Positions 456 to 31,318 of a stretch of 33,937 nucleotides of DNA are shown here, in pieces; position 1 is the stretch's first letter; every line of letters begins with the position of its first letter. The stretch is taken from positions 1 through 33,937 of the IMG/VR virus record IMGVR_UViG_3300009163_002667, one strand, 5' to 3'. This DNA comes from a virus. Below the pieces are notes generated by a model. It did not search any database and was not told the DNA's origin. It worked only from the letters and a program-made list of their open reading frames with translations. The position numbers were made by a program, and so were the translations under genes.

Positions 456-670
456 ACGCGACCGTCGCTCACCATGCAACCGGCGTGGACCTGACCTTGC
501 GCATCCCCGGCCTGCACCCGGTCACGGTTCGCGCTCCGACGTTGGCCGACGCCGTGGCGTGCGTCCGGTCTATCTTGGCCGACGAGCGATGGAAGATGCT
601 GGCCATGTTCGACGGCATCAACGCGGAACTGGACGACCTGAACGCCAGCGCAGTAGCCGCCGCCGATTGA
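452..670 (+). CDS. hypothetical protein, 72 residues
   Basis: The GTG start at 452 overlaps the previous stop (GTGA). The protein is small and acidic, with a beta-rich first half (GVDLTLRIPGLHPVTVRAP) and a helical, acidic second half (MFDGINAELDDLNAS). There are no membrane segments and no recognised motif. A much longer open frame runs through it from base 20, but its first 430 bases encode an Arg/Ser/Ala-rich shadow of the two genes upstream, so only this part is accepted. Its stop codon lies inside the -35 element of the promoter for the ParB-like gene. Confidence 0.6.
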   Translation: MNATVAHHATGVDLTLRIPGLHPVTVRAPTLADAVACVRSILADERWKMLAMFDGINAELDDLNASAVAAAD

Positions 671-695
671 CGCCACGTTAGCATCGCGGTAGCGT
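667..695 (+). promoter_or_regulatory. predicted leaderless promoter of the ParB/Mom/terminase operon
   Basis: TTGACG at 667-672 and TAGCGT at 690-695 are separated by exactly 17 bases. Six bases (696-701) then separate the -10 from the ATG at 702. With the usual spacing, transcription would start at or next to the A of the ATG, giving an mRNA with no leader. No Shine-Dalgarno sequence precedes this ATG. The same arrangement occurs before the portal and the Cro/CI-like genes. Confidence 0.6.
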
Positions 696-701
696 GGACA
701 A

Positions 702-1199
702 ATGGCCAGACCTAAGAATTTCCCAACTGTCGAAACCGTGCGAATGCCGCTCGCGATGCTCCTGCCGGCGGACTACAACCCGCGGCGCATCAGTGACCGG
801 GCCATGAAGGGCCTGCGCGCATCTCTGGAGCGGTTCGGCGAGTTGGGCGGCATCGTCTACAACAAGCGCACCGGGCGCCTCGTAGGCGGTCACCAGCGCG
901 TCAAGGCGCTTGCTGCAATGGGTGCCGAGGATGCGGAGGTGCGCGTCGTCGACCTGCCCGTTGCCGAAGAAAAGGCGGCCAACCTCGCGCTCAATCACCC
1001 CGGCATCGGCGGCGAGTGGGACGACGCGCTGCTTGCTGTCGTGCTCGAGGAAATCAAGCGCGACCTGCCGACCGCGTTTGAAGAGTTGCAGCTTGACGGG
1101 CTCTTCGTCCTCGACATCATCCCGAATGAACTCAACGATGGGACTGACCTGAGCCCACCAGAGCCCAAAAGGTGCCCGCACTGTGGCGAAGAAATCTGA
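702..1199 (+). CDS. ParB/Srx-fold N-terminal domain protein
   Basis: A 165-residue protein with a ParB-type nucleotide-binding domain. The conserved features are LLPADYNPRR near residues 20-29 and the GGHQRV signature at 62-67. In ParB relatives the GxxRxxA region binds CTP or acts in nuclease chemistry; here the form is GGHQR. The C-terminus ends in CPHCGEEI, half of a zinc ribbon. There is no C-terminal HTH of chromosomal ParB and no parA neighbour, so a plasmid-partition role is unlikely. Proteins of this kind often lie beside DNA-modification and terminase genes in phages. Its last 17 bases overlap the Mom-like gene, which suggests they act together. It has its own predicted leaderless promoter. 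Confidence 0.82.
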   Translation: MARPKNFPTVETVRMPLAMLLPADYNPRRISDRAMKGLRASLERFGELGGIVYNKRTGRLVGGHQRVKALAAMGAEDAEVRVVDLPVAEEKAANLALNHPGIGGEWDDALLAVVLEEIKRDLPTAFEELQLDGLFVLDIIPNELNDGTDLSPPEPKRCPHCGEEI

Positions 1200-1887
1200 A
1201 CTTCGGCTTGCATGGGTGGACGCTGCGACTGCGCGCAAGGCTATTGAGGCATGGCACTATTCAAAAGCATATGTCGCATCGAAGACGACGAACATCGGAA
1301 TATGGGAAGGTGCTGCCTTTGTCGGGGTCATCGTCTTTGCCCATGGCGGAAACTATCAGGCAGGGTCGCCGTACAGTATGCGAATCGATGAGGTGGTCGA
1401 ACTCGTCAGAGTCGCGATGAAGCCTCATTCATGCCAGGTCAGCAGGTGCATAAGGATTGCCCTACTGATGCTCAAGAAGTCGTCACCAGGGGTGCGGCTG
1501 GTCGTGAGCTATGCAGACCCGGTGCAAGGCCATGGCGGCGGCATTTACAAGGCTGGCGGTTGGGTATTCACAGGACAGACGAGCCCGTCCTTTGAGTATC
1601 GCGCAGGCGGGAAGCGGCTACAGAAGCGGGCATTCACGGGTGCAAACTTCGGCAATGGCAAGATGGAACTGCCCCCTGGCGCAGTAAAGGTGCAGGTCCC
1701 AGGCAAGTTGAAATTCCTGATGCCAATGGACGATGAAGCAAGGTCCTTGATTTCTCAACTCGCGAGGCCATACTTGCAGGGCCCGTCAAGCATTGCAGAT
1801 GCGCCACCTGACCAAGGTGGAGATGGCAGTTCCGGTCCGACCGGCGGGCTCCAAACTTCGGATGGCGGCCATGGCGCGACCGAGTAG
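1183..1887 (+). CDS. Mom-like DNA modification protein
   Basis: A 234-residue protein from a GTG start that overlaps the ParB-like gene by 17 bases. It looks like the Mom family of phage Mu, GNAT-fold enzymes that change adenine to a carbamoylmethyl-type adenine and so protect phage DNA from restriction. Visible family-like features are WHYSK at 24-28, an internal VELVRVAMK helix near 73-80, and SYADPVQGHGGGIYKAGGW at 109-127, which matches the conserved SYAD...GH..xIY.A..W core. The last 40 or so residues are Gly/Pro/Ser-rich and may be a linker. The DNA is less GC-rich than its neighbours: blocks 1201-1260, 1261-1320 and 1381-1440 are 60, 47 and 55 percent GC by my count, against 68 percent for 3061-3120 in terL. 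That fits recent acquisition. Confidence 0.78.
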   Translation: MAKKSELRLAWVDAATARKAIEAWHYSKAYVASKTTNIGIWEGAAFVGVIVFAHGGNYQAGSPYSMRIDEVVELVRVAMKPHSCQVSRCIRIALLMLKKSSPGVRLVVSYADPVQGHGGGIYKAGGWVFTGQTSPSFEYRAGGKRLQKRAFTGANFGNGKMELPPGAVKVQVPGKLKFLMPMDDEARSLISQLARPYLQGPSSIADAPPDQGGDGSSGPTGGLQTSDGGHGATE

Positions 1888-2269
1888 CCTGACCCCTGCC
1901 ATCACGGAGAAGGTCTGCGAGGCGCTCAAGCTCGGCGTCTCGTGGGATGCTGCCGCCGCGCATGCTGGCATTGGGGCCACGACCATTCACAGGTGGCTCG
2001 CGCAGGCCGCGGAGGATGAAGAGGGCGGGCTGTTCTGGGAGTTTCGGGAGCAGGCGACGCGTGCGCGCAACTCTGCCGAAACGCGGATGGCCGCCATCGT
2101 GATGAAGGCCGCCCAGGAGGGCAGTGCGAGTGCTGCGCAGTGGTGGCTTGAGCGTCGCAGGCCTGAAACGTGGTCGAGCAAGCAGACGGTCACGGTCGAC
2201 GCCCCTGACCCGTCTCGCGGCATCGCGGCCCTTCTGGGCAAGCTCGCGGAGCCCGGCGAGGGCGGCTGA
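1871..2269 (+). CDS. terminase small subunit
   Basis: A 132-residue protein. The frame is open further upstream, but ATG 1871 gives the typical start MARPSSLT and overlaps the Mom-like gene by only 17 bases; ATG 1862 is possible. Residues about 6-35 form a helix-turn-helix (ITEKVCEALKLGVSWDAAAAHAGI followed by TTIHRWL), the DNA-recognition domain of small terminases. A helical, charged middle with the AAQWWLERRRPETWSSK segment follows, a common signature in this family. Small terminases bind the packaging site and regulate the large subunit. It is joined to terL by TGATG. Confidence 0.85.
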   Translation: MARPSSLTPAITEKVCEALKLGVSWDAAAAHAGIGATTIHRWLAQAAEDEEGGLFWEFREQATRARNSAETRMAAIVMKAAQEGSASAAQWWLERRRPETWSSKQTVTVDAPDPSRGIAALLGKLAEPGEGG

Positions 2270-3720
2270 TGGCCGGGCTCCGGCTCGAAACGTTCAACCC
2301 GCTTCCGTGGCAGGCGCAGGCCCTCCGCGAGATACTGCGGCCGGGGTCGGTCGGTTGCGCGTGGGCCGGGGGAAAAGGTTCGGGCAAGAGTGCCCTCGTG
2401 TCGGTCGCCGCGTGCATGATTGCGGCAACACGGCCAGGCTGCGAGGTCGCGCTCGTGATGGACTCTTACAAGTCCCTGCGAGACATTCACCTCCCGCTCA
2501 TGTCGTCCATCGCGGCGAGCTGCGGGGGCGAGTGGCGCGCGACCGATACCGAGTTCCGATGGTCGTCCGGCTCGGTCGTCCGCCTGCGCCACCTCGACAT
2601 GAGCGGTGACCCGCGCATCGGCGGCAGCCCGATTGAGGGCATGAACCTGCACGCGCTGATTGCCGACGAGTGCCAGCAGATTGACGGGCGCTACTACACG
2701 GTTTGGCAAGAACGGACGCGCGTGACTGCCGTTGACCTCGCCGGGCAGCAATGCGCGCCCGTGGTGGTGGCGTCAGGGCTCCCCGTGTCGACGTGGTGGT
2801 GCGTGGACACCCTGCGTCACGGTGGCCACGTGTGGCGCCCGCAGACGCGCGACAACACGTACAATGACCCGGGCTATGAGGCCCGCGTGCGCGCGACCAT
2901 GACCGAGCGGCAGGCGCGCGCCATGCTCGACGGCGAGGAATGGTCGCCGGAAGGGCAGATTGTCGAGGAGTACGTCGCGCGTCTCGAGCCCGACGGCGTG
3001 CTCACGGACTGGACGCCGACCGACCGGAGCAAGACGCGCTTCGTGCTCTCCATGGACCTCGGCGGCAACAACCCGCACGCCATCCTCGCGGCCGAAGATG
3101 CCGAACAGGGACGATGGGTCGTCCTGCGCGAATGGTTCCACGTCGGCCCTCCCGTCAAGGCCGGGACGGGAATCACCCTCGGCGCCTTCTGCCGGCGCAT
3201 TTCGGCCGATTGCGTGCCCCGTCGCATGTGGGGCGGGGTGAATGACTCGCGTTTCCCGCTCGACGAGGTGATTGCAGACCCGTCCGGCGCTGCGACATCT
3301 GCGCAGACGGGGCACAGTGACCTCGACCTGATAGCGAGCGCGCCGCCCGATGGCCTCGGATTGCGCCCGCACGTCGAGACGATTCCTGAGCGTCGGTCGG
3401 TAGTGGGCTCGCTTAATCGGATGCGGCTCGCCATCGAGCGGCGCCGGCTCATGTTCTCGCGCGCCATGGTCGAAGCGCCCGGCGGCGAGTACCCCGCGCG
3501 CACGCTGCACGGGTCGCTCCTGGGCTACTCATGGGACCTGCGCGGACGCGACGAGCCGATGAAAGACGGCATCCACGACCATGCCGTTGACGCGCTTCGG
3601 TATCTCGCGAGGCGCGTGCTTTGGCATCTCTTCGACTCGCCGGGCATCGTGACCACGCCGCAGCATGGGCAGCCCCGCAAGCTCCCTGCGGCCCTCGCGG
3701 CGTCGAAGGGTGGACGATAG
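2269..3720 (+). CDS. terL: terminase large subunit
   Basis: A 483-residue packaging motor and nuclease. The ATPase domain has an adenine-contact segment (LPWQAQALREIL, 12-23), Walker A GGKGSGKS at 34-41 and Walker B LIADE ending at D133-E134. The C-terminal RNase H-like nuclease begins with SMDLGGNNPHA, with the first acidic metal ligand at D263, and ends with HDHAVDALRYL, which supplies the last acidic residues. An intermediate acid is likely in VIADPSG. Both active sites look intact and the length is normal. The gene starts within the stop of the small subunit (TGATG). It pumps DNA into the prohead through the portal and cuts the concatemer. Confidence 0.95.
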   Translation: MAGLRLETFNPLPWQAQALREILRPGSVGCAWAGGKGSGKSALVSVAACMIAATRPGCEVALVMDSYKSLRDIHLPLMSSIAASCGGEWRATDTEFRWSSGSVVRLRHLDMSGDPRIGGSPIEGMNLHALIADECQQIDGRYYTVWQERTRVTAVDLAGQQCAPVVVASGLPVSTWWCVDTLRHGGHVWRPQTRDNTYNDPGYEARVRATMTERQARAMLDGEEWSPEGQIVEEYVARLEPDGVLTDWTPTDRSKTRFVLSMDLGGNNPHAILAAEDAEQGRWVVLREWFHVGPPVKAGTGITLGAFCRRISADCVPRRMWGGVNDSRFPLDEVIADPSGAATSAQTGHSDLDLIASAPPDGLGLRPHVETIPERRSVVGSLNRMRLAIERRRLMFSRAMVEAPGGEYPARTLHGSLLGYSWDLRGRDEPMKDGIHDHAVDALRYLARRVLWHLFDSPGIVTTPQHGQPRKLPAALAASKGGR

Positions 3721-3752
3721 GCCACGGCTATCACGCGCCCTCGCGCTGATAG

Positions 3753-3781
3753 TTGAAAGTTATCATAGCGCAGTGTAGCGT
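3753..3781 (+). promoter_or_regulatory. predicted leaderless promoter of the portal/head operon
   Basis: TTGAAA at 3753-3758, a 17-base spacer, and TAGCGT at 3776-3781 lie in the 68-base gap after terL. Seven bases (3782-3788) then separate the -10 from the ATG at 3789, so transcription would begin within about one base of the start codon. The -10 hexamer is identical to the one before the ParB-like gene. Confidence 0.6.
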
Positions 3782-3788
3782 GGCGGGC

Positions 3789-5141
3789 ATGTTCGGCATC
3801 GTCGACAAGCTGCGGGCGTTGGTCATGCGCGACGACTCGCGACGAGTCGAAGCGCCCATTGGCCGCATCGGTGGACCGACGACGACGAACGGCGCGGCCT
3901 ACGAGCCCGCACGCCGGTATCAGGCCCACCCCGACCGCGTCCTCGCCATGCGGTCGGCGCTCGTCTGCCCGCCCGTCTACGTGGCACTGGGCATGTGGCG
4001 CGACTTGATGCGCGTGCCAACGCCGCGAATCGAGCCGGGCAAGGTCGAGGGCGCCGAGCCAACGCCGAGCGCGATGGCCTACGCCGAGCACGTCAAAGCC
4101 TGCCTCGGCATTGGCGCTGCGAGCCTGACCGGCGTGCGGTGGTCGTCTCTGTGGGGCGAGCTGCTGGGCTCCGTTGAGTACGGCTTTGGCGTGTGGGAGA
4201 CCATCGCAGAGGAACACGGCGGCGAGTGGTACACCGTTCTCAAGTACCGCGACCCCGCGTCAATCGCGTGGTGGCTGATGGGCGAGGATGAAGAGCTTGC
4301 CGGGTGTGTTCAGCAGCCGTTGTCCGGTTACGGGCGCGGTGTCGAGATTCCAGCGTCGCAACTGTTCCGCCTGACGTGGCGGCCCGTCTCGCGCTCCGAC
4401 TTCAGCGGCATCGGCATCCTTCGCCCGGCCGCGACCCTCGCCGTTGACCATGCCGCAGCCGCGCAGCTTCGAATCGTGGGCGTCCAGCGGTTCGCCGTCG
4501 GCACCCCGGTTGCGAAGGTGGACGCCGACACGGCCGCGCGCCTCGGCCCGCAGGCTGTGAAAGACGCCGACGACATCGCGACGATGCTCTCGGACTACGC
4601 GTCGAGTGACCGCGCATACCTCGTCCCGCCGCCCGGGTGGGACGTGAGCATCTTCGGCGCCGACTACGACGTTTCGCGCATCAATGCCGTGCTCGCCGAC
4701 ATCTCGCGCTCGATTTACGAGCTCGTGGCGATGCAATGGATGTTGCTCGGCTCCGGCGAGGGCGGCGGCTCATACTCGCTCGGCGAGACGCAGGTTGCAG
4801 CGTCGCGGCAGAGCGCACAGGCGGTGTGCGACTGGCTCGGCGAGGAGGTCAACGCCGGCCTCATCCCGCGCATCTGCAAGTGGCGGTTCGGCGAGGTCGA
4901 CGCGGCGGACCTGCCGCGGCTGCACTTCGACGGGCTCGCCAGCGAAGCCTTCGTCACGCACCTCAGCAGCCTCGCCGCGCTGAATGCGGCCGGCATCCTC
5001 CAAATCGGCCCCGCGTCGCGCGCCAGGGTGCACGCCGCGCTCGAGTTGGCCCCGCCGGAAGAGAAGCGGTCGGTGGGCCTCGGCCTGCGCCCGCAGACCC
5101 CTGCGGCGCCCGCCATGCCCACCCCGGGCGGGGGCGCGTGA
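3789..5141 (+). CDS. portal protein, DUF935/Mu gp29-like
   Basis: A 450-residue portal, the dodecameric ring through which DNA enters and leaves the capsid. The open frame extends to a TTG at 3753, but that codon is the predicted -35 element, so I take ATG 3789 (MFGIVDKLRALVM). The match to the gp29/DUF935 type rests on overall order: an N-terminal region with RYQAHPDRVLAMR, a central WGELLGSVEYGFGVWE, WWLMGEDEELAG, the WRPVSRSDFSGIGILRPA segment and a long helix with GSYSLGETQVAASRQ. The C-terminus is Pro/Gly-rich. It follows terL and precedes the protease, the normal head-gene order. Confidence 0.85.
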   Translation: MFGIVDKLRALVMRDDSRRVEAPIGRIGGPTTTNGAAYEPARRYQAHPDRVLAMRSALVCPPVYVALGMWRDLMRVPTPRIEPGKVEGAEPTPSAMAYAEHVKACLGIGAASLTGVRWSSLWGELLGSVEYGFGVWETIAEEHGGEWYTVLKYRDPASIAWWLMGEDEELAGCVQQPLSGYGRGVEIPASQLFRLTWRPVSRSDFSGIGILRPAATLAVDHAAAAQLRIVGVQRFAVGTPVAKVDADTAARLGPQAVKDADDIATMLSDYASSDRAYLVPPPGWDVSIFGADYDVSRINAVLADISRSIYELVAMQWMLLGSGEGGGSYSLGETQVAASRQSAQAVCDWLGEEVNAGLIPRICKWRFGEVDAADLPRLHFDGLASEAFVTHLSSLAALNAAGILQIGPASRARVHAALELAPPEEKRSVGLGLRPQTPAAPAMPTPGGGA

Positions 5142-6754
5142 TGCCGATTCGTCGCACGCCTACCGCTGCCGTCTCTGCCGCCGCTCGTCGCGGTGTCGCT
5201 CTCTACGAGGACGGCAAGGGCGGCCAGGGCTTGAAGCCTGAGACGATTCGCCGGGCTCGTTCCATCGCGGCCGGCGAGGTGCAGAGCATCGAATGGCTCA
5301 CGGTCGAGGCCCCGGCATGGTTCGCGCGCCACGACAAGACCCGCCCCGAGGGCGACTCGGCCGATTCCCCATGGCTTACCGCGTGGCTTCTGTGGGGCGG
5401 CAATCCCGGCCGTGCGTGGGCAGACCGCGAGAAAGCCCAGCGCGCGACGCTGGAAGAGAAGGGCGAAACGCTCATGGCGATGACCATTCCGACGGACGAC
5501 GGGCAGAGCCTCGGCGACTTCATGGAGGAACTGCGCGACGCGGTGACCATGCGCTTGCGAGGGGTCGCCCCAATGGGCTCGGAGCCCTGGATTCGTATTG
5601 AGGACGACGGCCTGACCGGCGATTCGGTCATCGGCGAGGTCTGCGGCACGGGCGATGATGCCTACTACCGGATGAACTATAGCCGCGGCGAGGACGGGCG
5701 CCTCGTCCTGTCTGAGCCGGTGCGCGTCGAGGAAGTCAAGACCTACGTTGACGCCCCCGGTCCGCTGCCTCTCTCGGCCGTGCTCTGCGAAATGGCCCCG
5801 GTGCACGCCCCGGCCGCTGAGGGCTTGGTGCGCGGCAAGGTCGCACAGCTCATGCGCGTCGGCCCGCTTCACGACGCATACACCGGCGCGCACTTGCTCG
5901 ACGTGACGGACGAGCTTCTCGCGTCCATCGTCACCGCGGCGGGCGCCGGGTTCTCCATCCCCATCGACTACGCCCACGCCCTCTATGGCGCGCAGGCGGG
6001 CGGCACCGACGCCGCGGCCGTGCCTCTCTACGGCCGTGTGACGGCTCTGGAGCACCGCCCCGGCGATGGCCTCTACGGCGTCCCCGAGTACACCGCGGCC
6101 GGCGCTGCGATGCTCGGCGCGAACCCGGGGCTTCTCTTCTTCTCGCCCACGCTCGTCGGCACCATGCACGACCCGGCGACGGGCAAGCCGCTCGGGCGCG
6201 GGCTGCACAGCGTCAGCCTCACCCCGACGCCGCGACAGAACAACATCGACTCACTGGCCCTCGCACGGGCCGCAGCCGGGGCCGAGAGCCCCAAAGGAGG
6301 CCCCATGGGGTCCAATCAGGGGGCCGGCACCAACGCGCCGGCCGACGTGGTGACGCTCTCGCGCACCGAGCATGACGCGCTCATGCTCGCCCGCACCGAG
6401 CGCGACACCTACAAGGCCGAGGCGGACGCCGCCAAGGCCGACGTCGTGGCGCTCGCGCAGCGTCTCGACGCGGTGGAGAAGGCTCGACACGCCGAGGCCG
6501 TGACCGCCGAGGTCAAGAGCTACGAGGCCAAGGGTCACATCGTGCCCGACGCGCTGAAGGCTGACGTGCTCTCCATGAGCGCCGACGTCCGCGCCCGCGT
6601 TCTCGGCTCGACCGAGAAGCGCGCGGTGGTGGCGCTCGGCCACGGGCAGACGGCCGAGGCGGTCAGTCCTGACGAACTCGACAACCGCATCATCACCCTC
6701 GCCCGAACCAAGGGCATCAGCCTCGCCGACGCGGCGAAGGAGGTGGCCGCGTGA
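5141..6754 (+). CDS. head maturation protease fused to scaffold, Mu gpI-like
   Basis: A 537-residue protein starting at ATG 5141 (TGATG junction with the portal). Three parts are visible. Residues about 10-96 hold a small domain ending SPWLTAWLLWGGNPGRAW, a module found at the ends of several phage head proteins. Residues about 205-385 resemble the Mu gpI protease, with FSIPIDYAHAL at 271-281 (probable catalytic His 279) and LLFFSPTLVG at 331-340 (Ser 335 candidate). From about residue 390 to the end is a charged coiled coil, the scaffold. The protease cleaves scaffold and capsid proteins during prohead maturation. The scaffold is probably also made alone from an internal start at 6305. The N-terminal fusion is unusual for a Mu-type protease. 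Confidence 0.82.
   Translation: MPIRRTPTAAVSAAARRGVALYEDGKGGQGLKPETIRRARSIAAGEVQSIEWLTVEAPAWFARHDKTRPEGDSADSPWLTAWLLWGGNPGRAWADREKAQRATLEEKGETLMAMTIPTDDGQSLGDFMEELRDAVTMRLRGVAPMGSEPWIRIEDDGLTGDSVIGEVCGTGDDAYYRMNYSRGEDGRLVLSEPVRVEEVKTYVDAPGPLPLSAVLCEMAPVHAPAAEGLVRGKVAQLMRVGPLHDAYTGAHLLDVTDELLASIVTAAGAGFSIPIDYAHALYGAQAGGTDAAAVPLYGRVTALEHRPGDGLYGVPEYTAAGAAMLGANPGLLFFSPTLVGTMHDPATGKPLGRGLHSVSLTPTPRQNNIDSLALARAAAGAESPKGGPMGSNQGAGTNAPADVVTLSRTEHDALMLARTERDTYKAEADAAKADVVALAQRLDAVEKARHAEAVTAEVKSYEAKGHIVPDALKADVLSMSADVRARVLGSTEKRAVVALGHGQTAEAVSPDELDNRIITLARTKGISLADAAKEVAA
6293..6300 (+). promoter_or_regulatory. internal ribosome binding site for separate scaffold protein
   Basis: AAAGGAGG lies inside the protease frame, four bases before an in-frame ATG at 6305. 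It is one of the strongest Shine-Dalgarno sequences in the window, equal to those before the decoration and capsid genes, and it has no role in translating the full-length protein. Confidence 0.75.
6305..6754 (+). CDS. scaffold protein from internal in-frame start
   Basis: A predicted 149-residue protein that shares its frame and stop with the protease gene. It begins MGSNQGAG, has a flexible Gly/Ala/Asn-rich N-terminus, then a long charged coiled coil (roughly LSRTEHDALMLARTERDTYK onward) and a helical C-terminus with SPDELDNRIITLARTKG. The nested protease/scaffold plan is well known from Mu (I and Z) and lambda (C and Nu3). Its job would be to direct capsid protein into proheads before being degraded. 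The strong internal ribosome site supports separate translation in excess of the protease. Confidence 0.72.
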   Translation: MGSNQGAGTNAPADVVTLSRTEHDALMLARTERDTYKAEADAAKADVVALAQRLDAVEKARHAEAVTAEVKSYEAKGHIVPDALKADVLSMSADVRARVLGSTEKRAVVALGHGQTAEAVSPDELDNRIITLARTKGISLADAAKEVAA

Positions 6755-8516: not shown

Positions 8517-8517
8517 C

Positions 8518-21503: not shown

Positions 21504-21596
21504 CGCGCGGAGTCTGCACCCTCGGCGCGCTTGCGACCATGCTACGATTGATGGCACTCGCCCGCCGTGTGTCTACAAATCGAAGCGTGCGCGCGC

Positions 21597-21602
21597 TACA
21601 AT
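21597..21602 (+). promoter_or_regulatory. -10 element of a possible leaderless promoter for the lysis genes
   Basis: The 106-base gap 21504-21609 holds TACAAT at 21597-21602, seven bases before the ATG at 21610. That is the same distance as in the portal promoter. The matching -35 position (21574-21579) reads TACAAA, a poor match, so this promoter is less sure than the other three. No Shine-Dalgarno sequence precedes ATG 21610. Nothing else is visible in the gap. Confidence 0.42.
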
Positions 21603-21609: not shown

Positions 21610-22227
21610 ATGACGACGCCCGCCATGCTCACGCCGTTCGACCCTCGTCGCGGGAATGCGACATTGGCGGCAGCCCTCGCAGAGTGGAAAAGCATCATCC
21701 GCGAGCCGCCAGCGGGGTCGCCGAACCGGATTCGCGAGTACCTGCGCGCGTGCGGGTTCGCCCGGCCGGACGACTACGACGCGAACGGAGACGCCGAGTG
21801 GTGCGGGGCGTTCGCCGCGTTCTGCCTCATCTCGAGCGGCGTGCGGCCGGAGCTACTGCGGCAGAAGTCGCCCCCGGAAGCGGGCGGGCTCGGCTCCACC
21901 TACCGCCTGCACCGGCTGTGCATCCTCGACGAGCAGCGCCGCATCACGCGCCCCGAGGACGTGCGCGCAGGTGACGTCGTGGTCGTGGGTCGCGTCGGCC
22001 GGGCGAAGTGGGGCGAGCACATCACCGTTGGCGAGGCGACACACCCAGAACGGGCGTACATCACGACCACGGAGGGAAACGCGGTCGGGCAGCTCGGCAA
22101 CCTCGGCCAAGGGGAAGGTGTCATCCGGCGCACGCGGCCTTTCGCGCCGACCGCCAACGCCAAGGGTTTCATTTTCGGCTTCCGCCCACTCCCGGGCGAC
22201 TACATCGGAGAGCACACCAATGGATGA
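21610..22227 (+). CDS. endolysin, CHAP/TIGR02594-like cysteine amidase
   Basis: A 205-residue protein. The open frame goes further upstream, but only from ATG 21610 does the protein begin sensibly (MTTPAMLTPFDPRRG). It carries the CHAP/NlpC-type active site: Cys 65 in AEWCGAFAAFC, His 137 in WGEHITVGE, and the acid/Asn pair in TTTEGNA near 153-157. A GDVVVVGR strand precedes the His, as in this family. Such enzymes cut peptidoglycan peptide or amide bonds to release progeny. There is no signal peptide, so it needs a holin; the coupled downstream genes include membrane proteins. The pattern is closest to TIGR02594-type phage peptidases. Confidence 0.75.
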   Translation: MTTPAMLTPFDPRRGNATLAAALAEWKSIIREPPAGSPNRIREYLRACGFARPDDYDANGDAEWCGAFAAFCLISSGVRPELLRQKSPPEAGGLGSTYRLHRLCILDEQRRITRPEDVRAGDVVVVGRVGRAKWGEHITVGEATHPERAYITTTEGNAVGQLGNLGQGEGVIRRTRPFAPTANAKGFIFGFRPLPGDYIGEHTNG

Positions 22228-22782: not shown

Positions 22783-25019
22783 TGCGCATCGGATTTTCCA
22801 TCATGGCCGGCCTTGCGCTGGCGGTCTGCGGGTCGATGGCAATCGCCGGCTCCGGGTACACGCCGCCCGCGGCGGGCTCCGGCGTCTCGGGCGACGGCAC
22901 CGGCGTGACCGACGCCTCGGCGTTCCGCAGCGCACTTAGCCTCGGCACGGCGGCGACCGTCAACACTGGCACGTCGAACGGCAATGCAGTCGTCCTCGGC
23001 ATGGGTGCCACCCTGCCGGCGGTGAATGCGTCGAACCTGACCGGCATCTCGTCGTCTCAGGTGTCCGGCCTCGGGACGGCGGCCGGCTACTCGGCGATGT
23101 CGTTTCTCCAGGCGGTGAACAACCTGTCGGACGTGACGCCGAGCACCGCACGGACGAACCTCGGGCTTGGCGACTCGGCAACGAGTGACCTTGTCGGTTC
23201 GACTGAGTTTGTCGTGTGCCCGTCCGGCTGCCCCTACTCGACGGTTTCGAGCGCCATCACGGCAGCCGCTGCCGTCGCGTCCTCGGGTAATGAGCGCGTA
23301 GTGCACGTACTGCCCGCCACGTACTCCGAAAACGTGACGCTTGCCCGGTTCGTGCAGCTCGTCGGCGTCGGCGGCACGGACCGCGGGACGCCCATCATCT
23401 CTGGCACCGTGACTGTCAATTTCGGCGCGTGCGCGATCGGGCTCTATCAGTGCACGACGACAATTCGAGGAATGCAAATCAGTGCGCCGGCCGCAGCATA
23501 CGCCATTGATTTCACCGGCAGCGGCCCGCAGAGCTTGCACCTTGACCGCGTCTTCGTGTACCTCGGGAGCAGCGGCAAGGGCATCCGAGTAAACAACAGC
23601 GGGTCGGAAACTGGTGTCACGTCAGTGGTCTACATGAACGACCTGAGCACGATCGACGCTGGCACGAACTCGAACGCGCACCTTGAGCACTCAGCGGGCC
23701 GCGTGCGATGGGCCGGACACAACGTCCTCCAGGATGCCACGTACGGCACGGCGATCACCATCAGTGGCTCGGCGGTCGAGTGGCAGGTCGGAGGCGCTCT
23801 GTACGTCGAGGGCTCGATGACCTCGGCGTCGAGCGGAGCCATGACGCTCGCCATGGCCGCGTTTCAGGTGGCGTCGGGCAGTTGCATCACTCAGAACGGT
23901 GCAGGGTTGATGATGCTCGGCAGCATCGCGTGCGCCAGCTCGGCGAATGCGTCGGCGGCCGTCGCGGGGGCCGGATTGCTGGCATACACGCCCGCGATGT
24001 TCGCGGCGCCCGGCTACACGTCGACTCTACTCGCGTCGACCCTGAACGGGGGCGCAGGACCGGTCGCCGTGGCATCTCCCATTGGGACGGCGGCGCTGGC
24101 AAACACGGGGACGAGCGCCGGCAATGTGCCGGTTCTCGACGGGTCGGCGAAGCTGCCGGCGATCAACGGGTCGAACCTGACGGGGCTCGTGTCGTCGCAG
24201 GTCTCTGGGCTCGGCACTGCGGCGACCAAGAACACCGGCACCAGTTCGGGCAACGTGCCCGTCCTTGGCGCGTCTGGACTGCCCGCGGTCGGCGGGTCGC
24301 TGCTCACGGGGCTTACGTCGTCTCAGATTTCCGGGCTCGGCACTGCCGCGGCGTCGGCCACCGGCGACTTTGTGGCGGCGTCCGCAGGGTACGCCGCTGA
24401 TACCTGGACCTACACCTGGACGCCGGCAGACGGCGACCCCATCTCAGCGAACGGATGGACCGCCGTGCAGAGCGCGGCGACAGCATCGACCACGGTCGAC
24501 GGCGTGGCGTGCTACTCAATCACGCCGTCCGGCGCGTCCGGCGAGTCGAGCATCTACAAGAACGTCGGCGCCGCGTCGGCGTCGTCGTGGGAGGCGCGCA
24601 TCCTGCTATGGGCGCCCAACGGCAACACGTCGAGATTCGGGTGGACCTTTGACAGCGGCATCGGCACGACTGACGCGCTCTTTAAAGTCACCATGGGCGG
24701 CACCACTACGCCGCTGCGCATGAACGAAGCGGTCGTGACTGTGCCTGCGCTGCAATACACGACCCGATGGGTCATGTGGACACTGCGCTGCTACTACGGT
24801 CTGAGCACCACGCAGACGTGCGAACTCTACTCGGGCCGCATCAAGCTCTACACGTTCGAGTCTGCCACTGCAGAAGCGGCGGTCAGCGCGGGTCGATTCA
24901 CCATCGGTCGCACGACGGGCGCCATTGTGACCGCCGGGTGCATCGGCGGCATCTGGGTCCGCTCGAACGGCGTCAACGAGGCCCCTGTCGAGTACCGCGA
25001 GCGGGCGAGGTCGTTCTGA
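22782..25019 (+). CDS. tail fibre protein with signal-peptide-like N-terminus
   Basis: A 745-residue protein from ATG 22782 (TGATG junction). Residues 1-22 read like a Sec signal peptide, with a hydrophobic core and AIA at 20-22. Next come phage tail-fibre repeats (LGTAATVNTGTSNGN...LPAVNASNLTGISSSQVSG, 54-96; two more at 434-518) and an ARTNLGL-type linker at 124-129. Residues about 144-390 look like a right-handed beta helix, and 530-745 like a lectin-type jelly roll. Such proteins bind or degrade host surface glycans. The signal peptide is odd, since virion proteins assemble in the cytoplasm. An internal start at Met 19 would remove most of it. Confidence 0.75.
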   Translation: MRIGFSIMAGLALAVCGSMAIAGSGYTPPAAGSGVSGDGTGVTDASAFRSALSLGTAATVNTGTSNGNAVVLGMGATLPAVNASNLTGISSSQVSGLGTAAGYSAMSFLQAVNNLSDVTPSTARTNLGLGDSATSDLVGSTEFVVCPSGCPYSTVSSAITAAAAVASSGNERVVHVLPATYSENVTLARFVQLVGVGGTDRGTPIISGTVTVNFGACAIGLYQCTTTIRGMQISAPAAAYAIDFTGSGPQSLHLDRVFVYLGSSGKGIRVNNSGSETGVTSVVYMNDLSTIDAGTNSNAHLEHSAGRVRWAGHNVLQDATYGTAITISGSAVEWQVGGALYVEGSMTSASSGAMTLAMAAFQVASGSCITQNGAGLMMLGSIACASSANASAAVAGAGLLAYTPAMFAAPGYTSTLLASTLNGGAGPVAVASPIGTAALANTGTSAGNVPVLDGSAKLPAINGSNLTGLVSSQVSGLGTAATKNTGTSSGNVPVLGASGLPAVGGSLLTGLTSSQISGLGTAAASATGDFVAASAGYAADTWTYTWTPADGDPISANGWTAVQSAATASTTVDGVACYSITPSGASGESSIYKNVGAASASSWEARILLWAPNGNTSRFGWTFDSGIGTTDALFKVTMGGTTTPLRMNEAVVTVPALQYTTRWVMWTLRCYYGLSTTQTCELYSGRIKLYTFESATAEAAVSAGRFTIGRTTGAIVTAGCIGGIWVRSNGVNEAPVEYRERARSF
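24081..24335 (+). repeat. tandem tail-fibre repeat units
   Basis: Two adjacent copies (24081-24209 and 24210-24335, 43 and 42 codons) encode the pattern GTAA-x-xNTGTSxGNVPVL-x-LPA-x-GS-LTG-SSQ-SGL. A third, older copy lies at 22941-23069, separated by the beta-helix domain. The protein pattern is conserved more than the DNA. Repeats like these form trimeric shafts in phage fibres and can change length by recombination. Confidence 0.75.
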
Positions 25020-25413: not shown

Positions 25414-25715
25414 CCCTCTCGTCCGTCGTGCTCGGGCTCGCGGTCTACGCCTGCCCGTCGCTGCCCACGCGCGGCGAGTCAGTCGTCCTTTGGCCCGGGT
25501 GTTCATTGCCGGACGCCGTGCTCGCCTACCCTCTGACGCACGCGGACGACGACGCGGAACTTTCAATCGCGGCCGGGCAGGTTGCCCGCGCCGCTCGTGG
25601 GTGCTCTGCGGAACTCGACAGCATTGCGTCTGGGACCGCGCCCACATGGGCCTTTGTCGCGGTGGGGACTGCAGCGGGGCTCGTTCTCGGCGTTCTAGCC
25701 GGTCGGGGGTTGTGA
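25410..25715 (+). CDS. small membrane protein of the lysis cluster
   Basis: A 101-residue protein from GTG 25410 (GTGA overlap). The N-terminal 12 residues are hydrophobic (SSVVLGLAVYACP) and the C-terminal 25 form a clear membrane segment (WAFVAVGTAAGLVLGVLAG). Three cysteines lie between (YACPSL, WPGCSL, ARGCSA). The C-terminal anchor with a preceding helix could be a second holin or another envelope protein. It sits between the holin-like gene and the spanins. Confidence 0.55.
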   Translation: MTLSSVVLGLAVYACPSLPTRGESVVLWPGCSLPDAVLAYPLTHADDDAELSIAAGQVARAARGCSAELDSIASGTAPTWAFVAVGTAAGLVLGVLAGRGL

Positions 25716-26038
25716 TGGCTCAGAATGCACCGGCGCCGGCGGCGCTCGGGCTCGCCTGGAGACTCGTCGGGGCGCTCGGCATGCCTGCGCTCGCCGTGGC
25801 GCTCCTGCTGTGGCGGGACGTGGCGCTCGACCACGCGCAGCTCGACGCGGTGCGTGGCGACGTCGCAGCCTTGAACGTTGCGCTCCGTGCGCACCTTGAC
25901 GCAGAGCGCGCCCGGCTCGACTCAGACGCCATGAAAAGAACCGATGACGCCGTTGCGCAGGCACGGCTTGAGGCGGCGATTGCTGCCGTGAGAGGTCAAA
26001 TCGATGCGTTGCTTTCTCGCCTGCCTCGTCGCGGGTAG
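25715..26038 (+). CDS. i-spanin, Rz-like
   Basis: A 107-residue protein from ATG 25715 (GTGATG junction). It has one N-terminal membrane segment (LVGALGMPALAVALLLW, about 18-34) and then a long coiled coil with an HLDAERARLDSDAMKRTDD-type charged helix. This is the shape of inner-membrane spanins, which span the periplasm and fuse inner to outer membrane at the end of lysis. It overlaps the next gene, in a different frame, by 35 bases, as in Rz/Rz1. Confidence 0.68.
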   Translation: MAQNAPAPAALGLAWRLVGALGMPALAVALLLWRDVALDHAQLDAVRGDVAALNVALRAHLDAERARLDSDAMKRTDDAVAQARLEAAIAAVRGQIDALLSRLPRRG

Positions 26039-26207
26039 CCTGTCGGCGGCCTGCGCACCGATGCCGTCGTCCATGCCGGCCCCATCGCCTGCGTCTCCGG
26101 GGCCTGCGCGCTCCGTAGCGGCCCCTGCGTCGCGTGGGGTTGCCGTGGAGGCGGCCGAACTGGAGCGAGCCGCGGTGAAGCTCGCGGCGGCCGTCAAGGC
26201 GCTGTAG
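26004..26207 (+). CDS. o-spanin, Rz1-like lipoprotein
   Basis: A 67-residue protein that starts inside the Rz-like gene in the +1 frame. The signal sequence (MRCFLACLVAGSLSAAC) is followed by a Pro-rich stretch (APMPSSMPAPSPASPGP) and a short helical tail, the pattern of Rz1 outer-membrane lipoproteins. The lipobox is imperfect: the Cys at 17 is preceded by S-A-A, not L-x-x. With the Rz-like gene it implies a Gram-negative host. Its stop overlaps the end of a convergent gene by 14 bases. Confidence 0.58.
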   Translation: MRCFLACLVAGSLSAACAPMPSSMPAPSPASPGPARSVAAPASRGVAVEAAELERAAVKLAAAVKAL

Positions 26208-26962: not shown

Positions 26963-26974
26963 TCGTCAGTGGGT

Positions 26975-27241
26975 TCAGGCGGCGGCGAAGTTGGCGGGGT
27001 TGCCCTGCTGGCGGTGCCAGACGCGGCCACGTTCGGGGATGCTGGCGCCGCCCTCGTCTGCCAGCGCGTGAATCTCGGCGATGACCGCATCGACGTCACC
27101 CGTCTCGTTCATCTCGGTATTGAACTTGGTGAGGCCGAGGCGCGCGCTGGCGAAGCAGAGGCCGCGGTCGACCTCGTGGTAAACGCGGATGATGTAGGTC
27201 TTGCCGTTCTTCGCAGCGTACTCGTGGGTGGTTTCTTCCAT
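26975..27241 (-). CDS. small early protein, unknown function
   Basis: An 88-residue leftward protein starting at 27241, about 43 bases downstream of the predicted start of transcription at the promoter 27291-27319. It begins MEETTHEYAAKNGKTYIIRVYHEVDRG, a beta-hairpin-like start, and continues with a helical FASARLGLTKFNTEMNETG segment. It may bind DNA or protein. It is the first gene of a small operon with the acidic protein, the HTH protein and the coiled-coil protein. No known motif is present. Confidence 0.62.
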   Translation of the reverse strand: MEETTHEYAAKNGKTYIIRVYHEVDRGLCFASARLGLTKFNTEMNETGDVDAVIAEIHALADEGGASIPERGRVWHRQQGNPANFAAA

Positions 27242-27278
27242 CGTCTTGCCTTTCGGTTGGGGCGCTTCGTTCGGCGCC

Positions 27279-27332
27279 GTTCATGAACAAAGAATAACTG
27301 AGCCCATGCCCTGTGTAAACATTTTATTTACA
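27279..27332 (-). promoter_or_regulatory. leftward promoter with two operator-like palindromes
   Basis: Reading leftward, TTTACA (27319-27314) and TATTCT (27296-27291) are exactly 17 bases apart, a good sigma-70-type promoter. A TGTAAA-N7-TTTACA inverted repeat (27314-27332) overlaps the -35, and the perfect palindrome GTTCATGAAC (27279-27288) overlaps the predicted start of transcription. The surroundings are AT-rich compared with the rest of the phage. Two palindromes on one promoter suggest repressor control. Confidence 0.68.
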
Positions 27333-27359
27333 GATGCGGTCGATTTGCAGGCCGCGCCA

Positions 27360-27617
27360 TCAGTGGTCCCATTCGTCGACCTCGACTTTCAGTTGGCCCC
27401 CGTATCCGCCGCACCCGATGACCGTCCCCAAGCGCCCCTTCGCGCGCAGGGTCAGCGGCAACGCGCACCGGAACCCAGTGGTCATCATCTGCCGCCCGGC
27501 CGTGTTGCGGACGTCGGTCAGGATGACGTCGCGACAGGCTCCGGCGATGCGCTCGACCACGGCGAAAAGCTCCACCCGGGCGCCGCGGGTGATTACTGCC
27601 CGGCTGCCGGGGGTCAT
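27360..27617 (-). CDS. small protein, unknown function
   Basis: An 85-residue leftward protein from 27617 (ATGA overlap with the HNH gene). It begins MTPGSRAVITRGARVELFAVVERIAG and contains RDVILTDVRNTAGRQMMTTGFRCAL and GTVIGCGGYGGQLKVEVDEWDH, a beta-rich arrangement. It is the last gene of the long operon that starts at 31172. Nothing identifies the function. Confidence 0.58.
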   Translation of the reverse strand: MTPGSRAVITRGARVELFAVVERIAGACRDVILTDVRNTAGRQMMTTGFRCALPLTLRAKGRLGTVIGCGGYGGQLKVEVDEWDH

Positions 27618-28033: not shown

Positions 28034-28308
28034 GGCATCACCCCCCGCGGCATCCGCGCGACCCGAAGATTCTCGCCCGGCGGCACCGCCAAAACGCAGC
28101 GGTCGCCGAGCGCATGCACCGCTGAGGCCATCGTGTCGAGCCGATGCATGCAGTCGGCCCGGTCGAAGCGCGCGAGCTCGTCGCACGCATCCAGAATGCC
28201 GGCCTCGCGGTCGGCCATCTGGTCGCCGTTGCGCGCGCCGACCAGGACAGCCGAGACGAATCCGGACGCGAACACGGCAACGATGAAGAGTGCTCGCTCG
28301 CCGCTCAT
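28030..28308 (-). CDS. small membrane-anchored protein
   Basis: A 92-residue leftward protein from 28308 (ATGA overlap). It begins with a membrane segment (ALFIVAVFASGFVSAVLVG) right after a short MSGER, followed by an acidic and basic helical part. Two Cys lie in DACDELARFDRADCMHRLD. Located among early genes, it may be an inner-membrane protein of early phage growth or exclusion. No family is visible. Confidence 0.6.
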   Translation of the reverse strand: MSGERALFIVAVFASGFVSAVLVGARNGDQMADREAGILDACDELARFDRADCMHRLDTMASAVHALGDRCVLAVPPGENLRVARMPRGVMP

Positions 28309-28637
28309 GCCGGCCCCCAGTGCGCGTCCATCCACGCCACCAGCTTCGGGCCGCTCCGGGGGTGCTTCCGCGCGTACTGCGTCGGTCCGGCCCGGAAGCA
28401 ACTCGCAATCGGCAGGTTGCGCTTGCGGCCGTACTTCACGACCTCGCGCGTCTTCGTGTCGACCGTCACGGCCGTCTCGACCACACAGAGCCGGTCGGCG
28501 ACGATGCGGTAACCGGCGCGCTTCCACACTGTTTCCGTCTCGGGCTCGCGGTAGTAGTCGCGGCTATCGTCCGGCGGGTTGAAGTCGCCGGGGCCGATGG
28601 TCACGCGCGGCCCCATGGTGTAATTGATCCAACTCAT
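28305..28637 (-). CDS. hypothetical early protein
   Basis: A 110-residue leftward protein from 28637 (ATGA overlap at the start). It has an N-terminal SWINYTMGPRVTIGPGDF segment, a basic middle (KRAGYRIVADRL) and an ending of RKHPRSGPKLVAWMDAHWG. Its charge and length would suit a small DNA-binding early protein. No motif is recognised. Confidence 0.58.
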   Translation of the reverse strand: MSWINYTMGPRVTIGPGDFNPPDDSRDYYREPETETVWKRAGYRIVADRLCVVETAVTVDTKTREVVKYGRKRNLPIASCFRAGPTQYARKHPRSGPKLVAWMDAHWGPA

Positions 28638-28897
28638 GCCGCATCTCCGTCATCACACTTGACGCCGGCCGCTTTCATCGCAGAGTACATCCGGTCGCGC
28701 TCCACGCGCAGCACCGCGACTTGCTCGACCAGTTCCTCATTTCGGTCCCCGAGTTCCTGAATCCTGGAATTCTGCCGGGCATTGAGGAAGTCCCATCTCT
28801 TGGCCCGCTCCATCATCACCATGTAGTTTGCCGCGTACCAGTGGAGCCGATCAGAGATGGTCGCGCTGTCCGGCAGTTCGTTGTCGTAGCTTCTCAT
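28634..28897 (-). CDS. small helical protein
   Basis: An 87-residue leftward protein from 28897 (ATGA overlap). A helical region runs from TISDRLHWYAANYMVMMERAKR to the end, with a coiled coil (NSRIQELGDRNEELVEQVAVLRVERDRM). The C-terminus is acidic with a CDDGD tail. It lies just after the DNA-binding gene and might pair with it. Confidence 0.6.
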   Translation of the reverse strand: MRSYDNELPDSATISDRLHWYAANYMVMMERAKRWDFLNARQNSRIQELGDRNEELVEQVAVLRVERDRMYSAMKAAGVKCDDGDAA

Positions 28898-29598
28898 GCC
28901 GCATCTCCGTCAAAGGGGTTGTCGTCTTCCACGGGCGGGGGCGGCGCGAGGTACGTCCGCAGGTCCGCCGCCCACTCGCCGCGCACCTTGCCCGCGAGGT
29001 ACTGCGCGGTCTTGATGCTCCACGTCTCGGGCGGGCCGGGGGACTTGCCCGTCTTCGCCTCGCAGAACTCGAGGAAGCCCACCATGTCGCAGTTCATTTC
29101 GCGCAGCACGGCGCGCACGGACGCGCGGTAGTCGTCGGCGCCCGGGGCCGGCGCGTCGTCCTGCTGCACGGCGCGGGGCTGCGTGCGCTTGGGCTCGTCC
29201 TTGAGCACGTCGATGCGGTGCTCGACCTTGCTTTTCTTGCTCGCGGCGAGGGTGATTTTCTTCGGCCCGTCGATGTGGCTCATGCCGCTGATACGGATTC
29301 CGCCGACCTCGACGCCGCCGTACTTGACGGTCGGGTCGCGGTACAGGCGAACGAGGCGCCCGGCCCACGCGGACGGGGCGGAACCCCAAAGCGCGGCCAG
29401 CACTCGCATCGTCGTCTTGCACGGCTTCCACGGCCGGAGGCCGCCGTCAAGCTCGACCGTGACCGGCTGTTCCATGCCGCCCGTGATGCGCGCCGAAACT
29501 ACTCGCACGGTCACAGGGCCGGCAATCAAGTCGTCCGCGTTCAACTGGTCGCTCTTCGCGGCCAGCAAAGGGGTGATGTCGTCGTTGTCGTTGCTCAC
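28894..29598 (-). CDS. putative DNA-binding/recombination partner protein
   Basis: A 234-residue leftward protein from GTG 29598, with an AGGAGG ribosome site and a GTGA overlap with the exonuclease. The N-terminal half has beta-rich repeats (ADDLIAGPVTVRVVSARITGG, QPVTVELDGGLRPWKPCKTTMRVLAALWGS, RLVRLYRDPTVKYGGVEVGGIRISGMS), a pattern I associate with an OB-like phage protein group of unknown function often beside recombination genes. After a Pro-rich linker comes a helical C-terminus with WSIKTAQYLAGKVRGEWAADLR. Tight coupling to the exonuclease suggests a single-strand DNA-binding or annealing role. Confidence 0.65.
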   Translation of the reverse strand: MSNDNDDITPLLAAKSDQLNADDLIAGPVTVRVVSARITGGMEQPVTVELDGGLRPWKPCKTTMRVLAALWGSAPSAWAGRLVRLYRDPTVKYGGVEVGGIRISGMSHIDGPKKITLAASKKSKVEHRIDVLKDEPKRTQPRAVQQDDAPAPGADDYRASVRAVLREMNCDMVGFLEFCEAKTGKSPGPPETWSIKTAQYLAGKVRGEWAADLRTYLAPPPPVEDDNPFDGDAA

Positions 29599-30461
29599 GC
29601 TTCGCCTCCTGCGTCTTCGATGGTCATCTCGTCGGCGGGGTAGGCCCACGCCGGCAAATCAAACTCCACCTCGCCCACGACGGGGCCGGGCCAGCTGCCT
29701 GACGCCTCGCACTGCGCGAGCGTCGCCAGGGCCGCTCGGTACTCCTGTCGCCCTCGCTCGAGCACATGCTCGGGAATGCGGTACACCGCGACCGCGTGGG
29801 GCGCGGCAGACTCGACCACGATTTCGACCACGGCCGGCAGGCGCCCCGTGATGGCCTGGAAACCGTCGCAGTAGAACGCCCACTGCCAGTGATAGCAGAG
29901 GTCCGCGGCTTGCGCGGCGAACTTGCGGGGGCGCAAGTCGCGCGTGGTCTTGAGGCCGACCACAACGTCACACCCGTCGATGGCCGTCAGCCAATCCACG
30001 CGGCCCTTGCAGGCCGTCCCCGTCTCCGCGTCGTGCCAGGCCATCGACACCTCGGCGTGACCGTGGCAAAGGTACACCATGGCCTCGGGGCAGCCGCGGA
30101 CGGCCGCAGCGATGGCGAGCGCGGTTGCGTGCTCGTCTTCAATCAACACGACGCGGCAGGCTGCCTCGGCGTCTGCCTTGAAGGCATCCCAATCCTTGCC
30201 GCGCCGGATGCCTCCGGTCCACGTGACGAACTCGGCAGAGAAGCGCGCGGGCTCCAGCGTGGCGCAGTGAGCGGCCGTCCCGAGCGCCATGGCCGAGCTC
30301 GTGGACTTCGGGTTGTCCTTTGCGTGCCTGTAGTGCAGCGGGGAGCAGTTGAACTCCTTCAAGCTCGACACGTTGACTCCCGCCGCGGCGCGGTAGTTGC
30401 CGAACGGCACATCGGCCACGATGCGCCCGGCCGAGTTGGATTCGAGCGTGCGCGCGCTCAT
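29595..30461 (-). CDS. RecE/YqaJ-type PD-(D/E)XK exonuclease with a changed active site
   Basis: A 288-residue leftward protein from 30461. It has the DUF3799/RecE C-terminal plan: VSSLKEFNCSPLHYRHAK (31-48), SSAMALGTAAHCATLEP, RRGKDWDAF, AEVSMAWHD, CKGRVDWLT and the closing YHWQWAFYCDG (190-200). Such enzymes degrade the 5' strand in phage recombination. Expected catalytic residues are H65, E137, D156, then D-x-K. The last motif reads G169-L-K171 where an aspartate should precede LK. The codon is GGC, one transition from GAC. The protein may be inactive, altered, or the sequence may contain an error. Confidence 0.8.
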   Translation of the reverse strand: MSARTLESNSAGRIVADVPFGNYRAAAGVNVSSLKEFNCSPLHYRHAKDNPKSTSSAMALGTAAHCATLEPARFSAEFVTWTGGIRRGKDWDAFKADAEAACRVVLIEDEHATALAIAAAVRGCPEAMVYLCHGHAEVSMAWHDAETGTACKGRVDWLTAIDGCDVVVGLKTTRDLRPRKFAAQAADLCYHWQWAFYCDGFQAITGRLPAVVEIVVESAAPHAVAVYRIPEHVLERGRQEYRAALATLAQCEASGSWPGPVVGEVEFDLPAWAYPADEMTIEDAGGEA

Positions 30462-30736
30462 GCCGGCACCTGCACGTCGTACTCGGCCCCATCTCGGCGG
30501 CCCTGCTCGTAGGCGTCCTTAAAGTCGCGCTCGGTCAGACCTGGGGCCACGCGCATCGCCTCGCAGACGATGGCCGCGGCCTCGTTGGCGATGCACGCGG
30601 CGGTCGCGGCGACGGCCTGGGCTTCCACCGCGGTCAGCGTGTCACCGGCGCGGCGGGCCTTGCTGTTGTGGCCGATAAGCATGTCGAGCCGGGCAGCGAT
30701 TCGGCCGATGCGCTGGTCGATGTCAGTGGTGTTCAT
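30458..30736 (-). CDS. small helical protein
   Basis: A 92-residue leftward protein from 30736 (ATGA overlap). It is helical throughout, with AVEAQAVAATAACIANEAAAIVC and a charged C-terminal TERDFKDAYEQGRRDGAEYD segment. It lies directly before the exonuclease gene in translation order. No motif is recognised. Confidence 0.6.
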   Translation of the reverse strand: MNTTDIDQRIGRIAARLDMLIGHNSKARRAGDTLTAVEAQAVAATAACIANEAAAIVCEAMRVAPGLTERDFKDAYEQGRRDGAEYDVQVPA

Positions 30737-30957
30737 GCCGCGTCTCCGTTGCCGCAGATGCGCTCCATGGCGTCCTGCCCGTCCTTGAACTTCGCAGAAC
30801 TGAGGGCGGCGACGGCAGTGTCCACAAGCCCGGTCAGCACGAGCGTCAGCGCGTAAAACTGGCGGTCGTCGAGCAGTTGCTCGGCGCGCTTGAGGTCACA
30901 GCGGATGCGCTCAATTCGGCCGCCTTCAAGGCTGCTCATGATGGCGTCGGCGCTCAT
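30733..30957 (-). CDS. small helical protein
   Basis: A 74-residue leftward protein from 30957, coupled by ATGA on both sides. It contains GGRIERIRCDLKRAEQLLDDRQFYALTLVLTGLVDTAVAALSS, a helical-hairpin-like segment, and ends ERICGNGDAA. It may regulate or associate with its neighbours; no family is visible. Confidence 0.6.
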   Translation of the reverse strand: MSADAIMSSLEGGRIERIRCDLKRAEQLLDDRQFYALTLVLTGLVDTAVAALSSAKFKDGQDAMERICGNGDAA

Positions 30958-31172
30958 GCGGCCAACTCCACCCGGGCCGCGTCACGCAGCGCGCGGCGGC
31001 AGTGGTCGCACAGGCCGCGGTCGGAGAGCAGGTCACGCACGTTGTCGACCTCGATTGACGCTCGCACGATGTCGCGCAGGGCCTTGTCGCGCTGCAGGAC
31101 GAGCAGCCGATTGACGCGGACGAGCTTGCGGACTCGGCGCTCAAGTCTGACGGTTGTATTGTCTCGGTCCAT
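30954..31172 (-). CDS. first gene of the leftward operon, CxxC-type small protein
   Basis: A 72-residue leftward protein. Of the possible starts I chose 31172, since AAGGAG lies six bases before it; starts at 31178 and 31247 lack a proper site. It is basic (RLERRVRKLVRVNRLL) with a C-terminal CDHCRRALRDAARVELAA, a CxxC pair that could bind zinc. It opens the operon after the predicted promoter at 31219-31247. Likely a small DNA-binding or regulatory protein, with no firm family. Confidence 0.62.
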   Translation of the reverse strand: MDRDNTTVRLERRVRKLVRVNRLLVLQRDKALRDIVRASIEVDNVRDLLSDRGLCDHCRRALRDAARVELAA

Positions 31173-31218
31173 CTCCATCTCCTTTGCATTGGGCGTCTTG
31201 TGCGCCGGTTGTGGGATG

Positions 31219-31247
31219 AAGGTACGCCGGGCAGATTCTTTGCGCAA
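31219..31247 (-). promoter_or_regulatory. candidate leftward promoter of the early operon
   Basis: Reading leftward, TTGCGC (31247-31242) and TACCTT (31224-31219) are 17 bases apart. Both match the consensus poorly (three of six each), but the TAxxxT form resembles the phage's own TAGCGT and TACGGT elements. The -35 lies in the palindrome TTGCGCAA (31240-31247), a possible operator. The leader of about 40 bases carries AAGGAG. Confidence 0.42.
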
Positions 31248-31283
31248 GTCGTTTCGTAGTCTTTTTTTAGCACACTTTTACTA

Positions 31284-31312
31284 TTGACGTGCGGCGCCGG
31301 CTTCTTTACGGT
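31284..31312 (+). promoter_or_regulatory. predicted leaderless promoter of the Cro/CI-like gene
   Basis: TTGACG at 31284-31289, a 17-base spacer, and TACGGT at 31307-31312, with six bases before the ATG at 31319. Its spacing and -35 match the promoter of the ParB-like gene. The AT-rich stretch 31255-31283, including seven T in a row, lies just upstream and is shared with the divergent promoter. Confidence 0.65.
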
Positions 31313-31318
31313 TGCCCC

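Follow-up and report, generated by a model that had tools for sequence, protein, structure and literature searches.

In leaderless initiation, 70S ribosomes together with initiator tRNA recognise a 5' AUG. Among phages, the cI mRNA of lambda is leaderless (PMC9031893), as are the cI and cro mRNAs of PY54 (PMC4488713), and most middle and late transcripts of the Thermus phage phiYS40 carry no leader (PMC3594737). Infection with phiYS40 is also reported to shift the expression of IF2 and IF3 (PMC3594737). Phage-wide leaderless expression, for which an earlier note on the DNA studied here gave no precedent, therefore has a published one in this phage. In cellular genomes, leaderless genes adjacent to TANNNT are common in high-GC Actinobacteria and in Deinococcus-Thermus (PMC3160421, PMC12340547). 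For the archaeon Sulfolobus solfataricus, a rule cited in PMC3160421 has operon-head genes leaderless and operon-distal genes Shine-Dalgarno-led.

Here we analyze a linear IMG/VR virus record of 33,937 bases and 67.7% GC (IMGVR_UViG_3300009163_002667), the whole of which we call the window. We consider it highly likely that four rightward transcription units of the window possess sigma-70-type promoters with the predicted +1 on the A of the ATG and thus give rise to leaderless mRNAs. Spacing, the lack of Shine-Dalgarno sequences and conservation in distant relatives concur in making this the best reading, as predicted from sequence. The messages of the head and regulator operons would very probably carry no ribosome-binding leader.

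Promoters at rightward gene starts

The window contains three sites of the form TTGA(C/A)(G/A)-N17-TA(G/C)(C/G)GT directly upstream of ATG codons, and every base, the 17-base spacer and the ATG distance are as first claimed. The promoter of the operon encoding the ParB-like protein, Mom, TerS and TerL (667..695, + strand) consists of a -35 TTGACG at 667-672 and a -10 TAGCGT at 690-695, followed after 6 bases by the ATG of the ParB-like gene (702..1199, +; PHROG 620, E=2e-30), with position 702, the A of this ATG, as the predicted +1. The ParB-like gene accordingly heads the packaging operon and is predicted to be leaderless. The portal/head operon promoter (3753..3781, +) combines a -35 TTGAAA at 3753-3758 with a -10 TAGCGT at 3776-3781 and precedes the Mu-type portal gene (3789..5141, +; PF06074, E=2e-20), which is predicted to be leaderless. 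Its discriminator is N7 rather than N6, so the predicted +1 is 3789 or the adjoining base and might be the C preceding the ATG. The regulator promoter (31284..31312, +), with a -35 TTGACG at 31284-31289 and a -10 TACGGT at 31307-31312, lies 6 bases ahead of the start of a predicted leaderless gene for a 68 aa Cro-like HTH regulator (31319..31525, +; HTH_31/HTH_3), placing the predicted +1 at 31319, again the A of the ATG.

A fourth site precedes the gene first called endolysin (21610..22227, +), likewise predicted to be leaderless, for which no Pfam or PHROG match was found at E<=0.001. The earlier note held that this site fits the -10 half only. TACAAT-N7-ATG(21610) is indeed present, with the -10 at 21597-21602, but the description is slightly too strict since a weak -35-like TACAAA (21574-21579) is located exactly 17 bases upstream, giving a candidate promoter at 21574..21602 (+). 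The endolysin -35 is poor, which counts against the leaderless-promoter reading at this gene. Spacers are 17 bases long at all four rightward sites, within the 16-18 bases typical of sigma-70-type promoters, and the -10 elements lie within the 5-7 bases ahead of the start codon that characterize leaderless mRNAs. All window sites start with ATG, as do the portal genes of all relatives with the sole exception of L065 (GTG). None of the four rightward sites was reported by a strict 9-of-12 sigma-70 consensus scan of the window; such a general scan is too strict for the GC content of this DNA.

Two further features concern the genes behind these promoters. Ahead of TerS, at 702-1887, lie the ParB-like gene and one for a Mom-like DNA-modification protein (PF25680, E=2e-34), and neither has a match among the relatives G001-G010 examined. 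Within the protease-like gene at 5141-6754, AAAGGAGGCCCCATG is found at 6290-6310, as expected for the start of a nested scaffold protein.

The motif genes lack Shine-Dalgarno sequences, as proposed in the earlier note. Predicted pairing of the 16S tail with the 20 upstream bases is weak at the four leaderless genes (-3.2, -5.3, +1.1 and -2.4 kcal/mol), compared with a median of -7.0 kcal/mol at the other starts with a valid start codon (n=39; Mann-Whitney one-sided p = 0.004). Gene starts were hand-picked, and at 5/44 listed positions there is no valid start codon; the difference relative to all 44 listed starts also gives p = 0.004. The four genes thus show the start codon without Shine-Dalgarno that is characteristic of leaderless mRNAs, while pairing is strong at the majority of other starts, such as that of the major capsid gene with its AAGGAGG. 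Among the listed window starts, TANNNT within 20 bases upstream is found only at the four leaderless genes and at 27284 (-), always at -12 or -13.

The motif exceeds its controls

A motif scan against shuffled controls, proposed earlier as a check, places the motif of the window far above shuffle level. TTGANN-N16..18-TANNNT-N5..8-ATG has 3 matches in the window, each coinciding with an open-frame start, compared with a mean of 0.02 and a maximum of 1 in dinucleotide shuffles. Without a -35, counts of the -10 half come close to chance when the window is taken by itself (TANNNT-N6-ATG, 5 vs 1.3; TANNNT-N7-ATG, 2 vs 1.5), indicating that the signal is carried by the -35 and its fixed 17-base spacing. 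When spacer and discriminator lengths are tabulated as a grid for seven records (the window plus six related phage contigs), a single sharp peak of 13 matches stands at TTG-N17-TANNNT-N6-ATG, with at most 2 in every other tabulated cell; the 3x3 block around 17/6 holds 18 matches. Restricted to five lineages, this block holds 14 matches where other spacings predict 0.57. The reversed pattern yields 3 matches compared with 27 in twelve partly redundant records. The unrelated high-GC control phages Mx8, D3112 and SoJo have 0, 1 and 0 matches, respectively, and no such peak. The Sodalis phage phiSG1 served as mid-GC control, and the control counts of P23-45 and phiYS40 (152 kb; 32% GC in the 50 kb examined) carry no information, since the background rises in DNA of lower GC. 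The motif ATGs open real and mostly homologous genes, namely those for portal, TerS, endolysin and HTH regulators.

In the Streptomyces phage phiC31 (L073), 6 TANNNT-N5..7-ATG sites lie at open frames where 0.2 are expected. This excess is expected since the host phylum is rich in leaderless genes (PMC3160421), and leaderless starts may be common in phiC31 as well.

Conservation of the promoter geometry in related phages

Terminase and portal searches of viral contigs identified near relatives (portal identity 93-100%) and distant relatives (terminase 66-72%, portal 35-49% identity) that have head and tail genes in common with the window. In near relatives, the TAGCGCA of the portal spacer is replaced by CCGCCCC while the -35, the -10 and their distance are constant. 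In distant relatives, the terminase-portal region is otherwise dissimilar and the promoter geometry is kept wherever the available sequence includes the portal start, down to a portal identity of about 36%. TTGNNN-N17-TANNNT-N5..7-ATG precedes the portal gene in L011-L021, L067 and L068 (portal identity 36-47%) with differing -35, spacer and upstream DNA. The -35, -10 and discriminator are TTGTAG/TAACGT/N6 in L011, TTGTAG/TACCCT/N6 in L012-L014, TTGTGG/TAACGT/N6 in L015 and L016, TTGCGC/TACCGT/N5 in L017, TTGCGC/TAGGGT/N6 in L019-L021 and TTGCGC/TACCGT/N6 in L067 and L068, with the variant TTGCGC-N18-CATAGT-N6-GTG in L065. G001 and G002 retain the regulator promoter. Promoters of the same kind stand ahead of HTH regulator genes in G007 and G010 and ahead of the gene for the terminase small subunit in G001, G002 and G009. 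Read by eye, the G004 regulator has TTGCAT-N17-CACTAT-N6-ATG. No such promoter lies ahead of TerS in G004, G007, G008 and G010, and only the portal promoter is consequently family-wide. At 24000-24067 in G010, a GC-rich hairpin with a T-run immediately precedes a TTGCCG-N17-TAGGGT-N6-ATG promoter that lies within the head gene cluster.

Palindromes accompany the portal promoter. In the window, the perfect inverted repeat TGATA-N9-TATCA (3747..3765) covers the portal -35 and represents a probable operator; a copy with one mismatch, CGATA-N9-TATCA, is found upstream at 3715..3733, 32 bases from the former. A palindrome covers or adjoins the portal -35 in most clades: GATGCT-N9-AGCATC in L011-L016, repeated 61 bases farther upstream in G004 and, in a weaker form, in G008, and TGCGCA-N6-TGCGCA in L019 and, by eye, in L067 and L068. 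Constant position combined with clade-specific sequence is what one would expect if operator and regulator had been exchanged, and a phage repressor or activator would probably control late transcription through this element. A search at the other promoters did not recover the portal palindrome, so one operator common to all leaderless promoters is not supported.

The leftward operons are leadered

The proposal that leaderless starts mark operon heads agrees with the rightward operons (regulator, ParB/terminase, portal and endolysin) but fails for both leftward operons, which are leadered and carry Shine-Dalgarno sequences. The divergent leftward promoter TTGCGC-N17-TACCTT (31219..31247, -) serves a gene starting at 31172, whose predicted transcript has a leader of about 40 bases and the Shine-Dalgarno AAGGAG. 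The other leftward promoter, TTTACA-N17-TATTCT (27291..27319, -), was part of a minus-strand geometric match missed at first, TTTACA-N17-TATTCT-N6-ATG(27284). We rejected 27284 (-) as a fifth leaderless gene on the basis of a conserved leader hairpin, a Shine-Dalgarno and a start codon 43 bases downstream; the gene behind this promoter encodes 88 aa and starts at 27241 (-) instead of 27284. Leftward genes thus sit about 40 bases downstream of their promoters, behind AAGGAG or AAAGG. The 5' leader hairpin GGCGC-N8-GCGCC (27261..27278, -) begins 12 bases after the -10, and GGCGC-N5..8-GCGCC is found at this position in G001 as well as at two sites of G007. The sites are 27230-27320 (-) and 31170-31250 (-) in the window, where the stem of the copy near 31206 is imperfect, 3251 (-) in G001, and 34431 and 33377 (-) in G007. 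In the leftward transcripts the Shine-Dalgarno comes after the hairpin. Three leftward transcripts also have TATTCTTTGNNCATGAAC in common at their start.

From these sequence features, the phage family seems to possess two promoter classes, one rightward and leaderless, the other leftward with a hairpin-capped leader. We infer the assignment of the two classes to early and late expression from gene content only.

Host clues

Terminase scans of genomes and a search of plasmids found no relative. A phage search returned only a 28% terminase match to the Streptomyces phages SoJo and Tubberson and otherwise general DnaB hits. An overlapping gene pair at 25715-26207 encodes a membrane/coiled-coil protein and a small lipoprotein with the lipobox LSAAC and looks like Rz/Rz1 spanins, which suggests a Gram-negative host; the pair has no supporting PHROGs hit or family match.

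Discussion

In the proposed mechanism, host sigma-70-type promoters, with the host's promoter consensus and its tolerance of leaderless mRNA assumed, would drive the regulator, ParB/Mom/terminase, portal/head and endolysin units. With the -10 located 6-7 bases before the ATG, transcription would begin on the A of the start codon, the mRNA would open with 5'-AUG and the first gene would be translated by leaderless initiation without a Shine-Dalgarno. Downstream genes would be translated through their start/stop overlaps or, as for the major capsid gene, a strong Shine-Dalgarno. The leftward promoters share the 17-base spacing, but their sequence shows a leader containing a 5' hairpin and a Shine-Dalgarno ahead of the gene.

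Other explanations have to be weighed against this mechanism. The -10 elements might be real and the main transcripts begin farther upstream, the first codon being reached by an unusual leadered, Shine-Dalgarno-free initiation. The compact genome, in which terminator-like sites are no commoner than in shuffles, makes read-through from upstream genes likely, but the 6-7 base distance between -10 and ATG is kept in many lineages and a promoter whose transcript starts elsewhere needs no such distance; we regard this explanation as improbable. Promoters at short gene borders might also only look leaderless, with true start codons farther downstream and leadered transcripts. This is exactly the case at 27284 (-), where an ATG at +1 lies inside a conserved leader. 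For the rightward genes we judge it very improbable, given that the portal Met at position 1 is an invariant column in alignment A2 and that protein similarity of portal and regulator to near relatives begins at residue 1. That the matches arise by chance under a loose pattern, as the near-chance counts of the -10 half alone could suggest, is ruled out for practical purposes by the shuffle, reversed-pattern, off-spacing and unrelated-phage controls, all of which reject it.

The preferred reading, leaderless initiation at the rightward operon heads, makes this phage family a clean case, supported by evolutionary conservation, of leaderless promoters at operon heads, where the promoter retains its leaderless geometry while its -35 and its operator are exchanged. 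In such phages, the sequence then allows start codons and operon heads to be read. A more speculative and unlikely extension is that these uncultured phages, whose hosts may be Gram-negative, divide the genome according to translation mode throughout the family. The rightward regulator and late operons would then give only leaderless mRNAs and the leftward operons only mRNAs with a hairpin-capped leader and a Shine-Dalgarno, and altered host ribosomes or initiation factors in infection could switch protein synthesis between the classes. In this system one can ask directly whether gene classes are kept apart by translation mode during infection.

Leaderless phage mRNAs and operon-head leaderless starts have both been described, and the window is therefore a clear new case of a known gene-start mode and not a new mechanism. 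What is new is that the arrangement is conserved through a phage family for which the collections searched contain no close cultured relative, and that it contrasts with a leadered leftward class. The promoter-headed portal and endolysin units would fit the predominance of leaderless middle and late mRNAs in phiYS40, here at the level of sequence; unlike in phiYS40, to which we see no relationship of the window phage, the predicted leaderless starts open operons and have a -35 as well as a -10 element. As in lambda cI and PY54 cI and cro, the regulator is predicted to start at a 5' AUG right behind its promoter, making the Cro-like regulator a direct parallel, but the described cases in lambda and PY54 are repressor genes, whereas the portal/head and terminase operons are predicted to be leaderless here as well. 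The genes resemble those of high-GC bacteria in having TANNNT directly before the start codon and no Shine-Dalgarno; unlike in these cellular genes, a -35 at a fixed distance of 17 bases is also conserved. A predicted leaderless first gene followed by Shine-Dalgarno-led distal genes recalls Sulfolobus solfataricus, although that rule is archaeal and cellular, whereas here it is followed by a bacterial phage and broken by its leftward operons.
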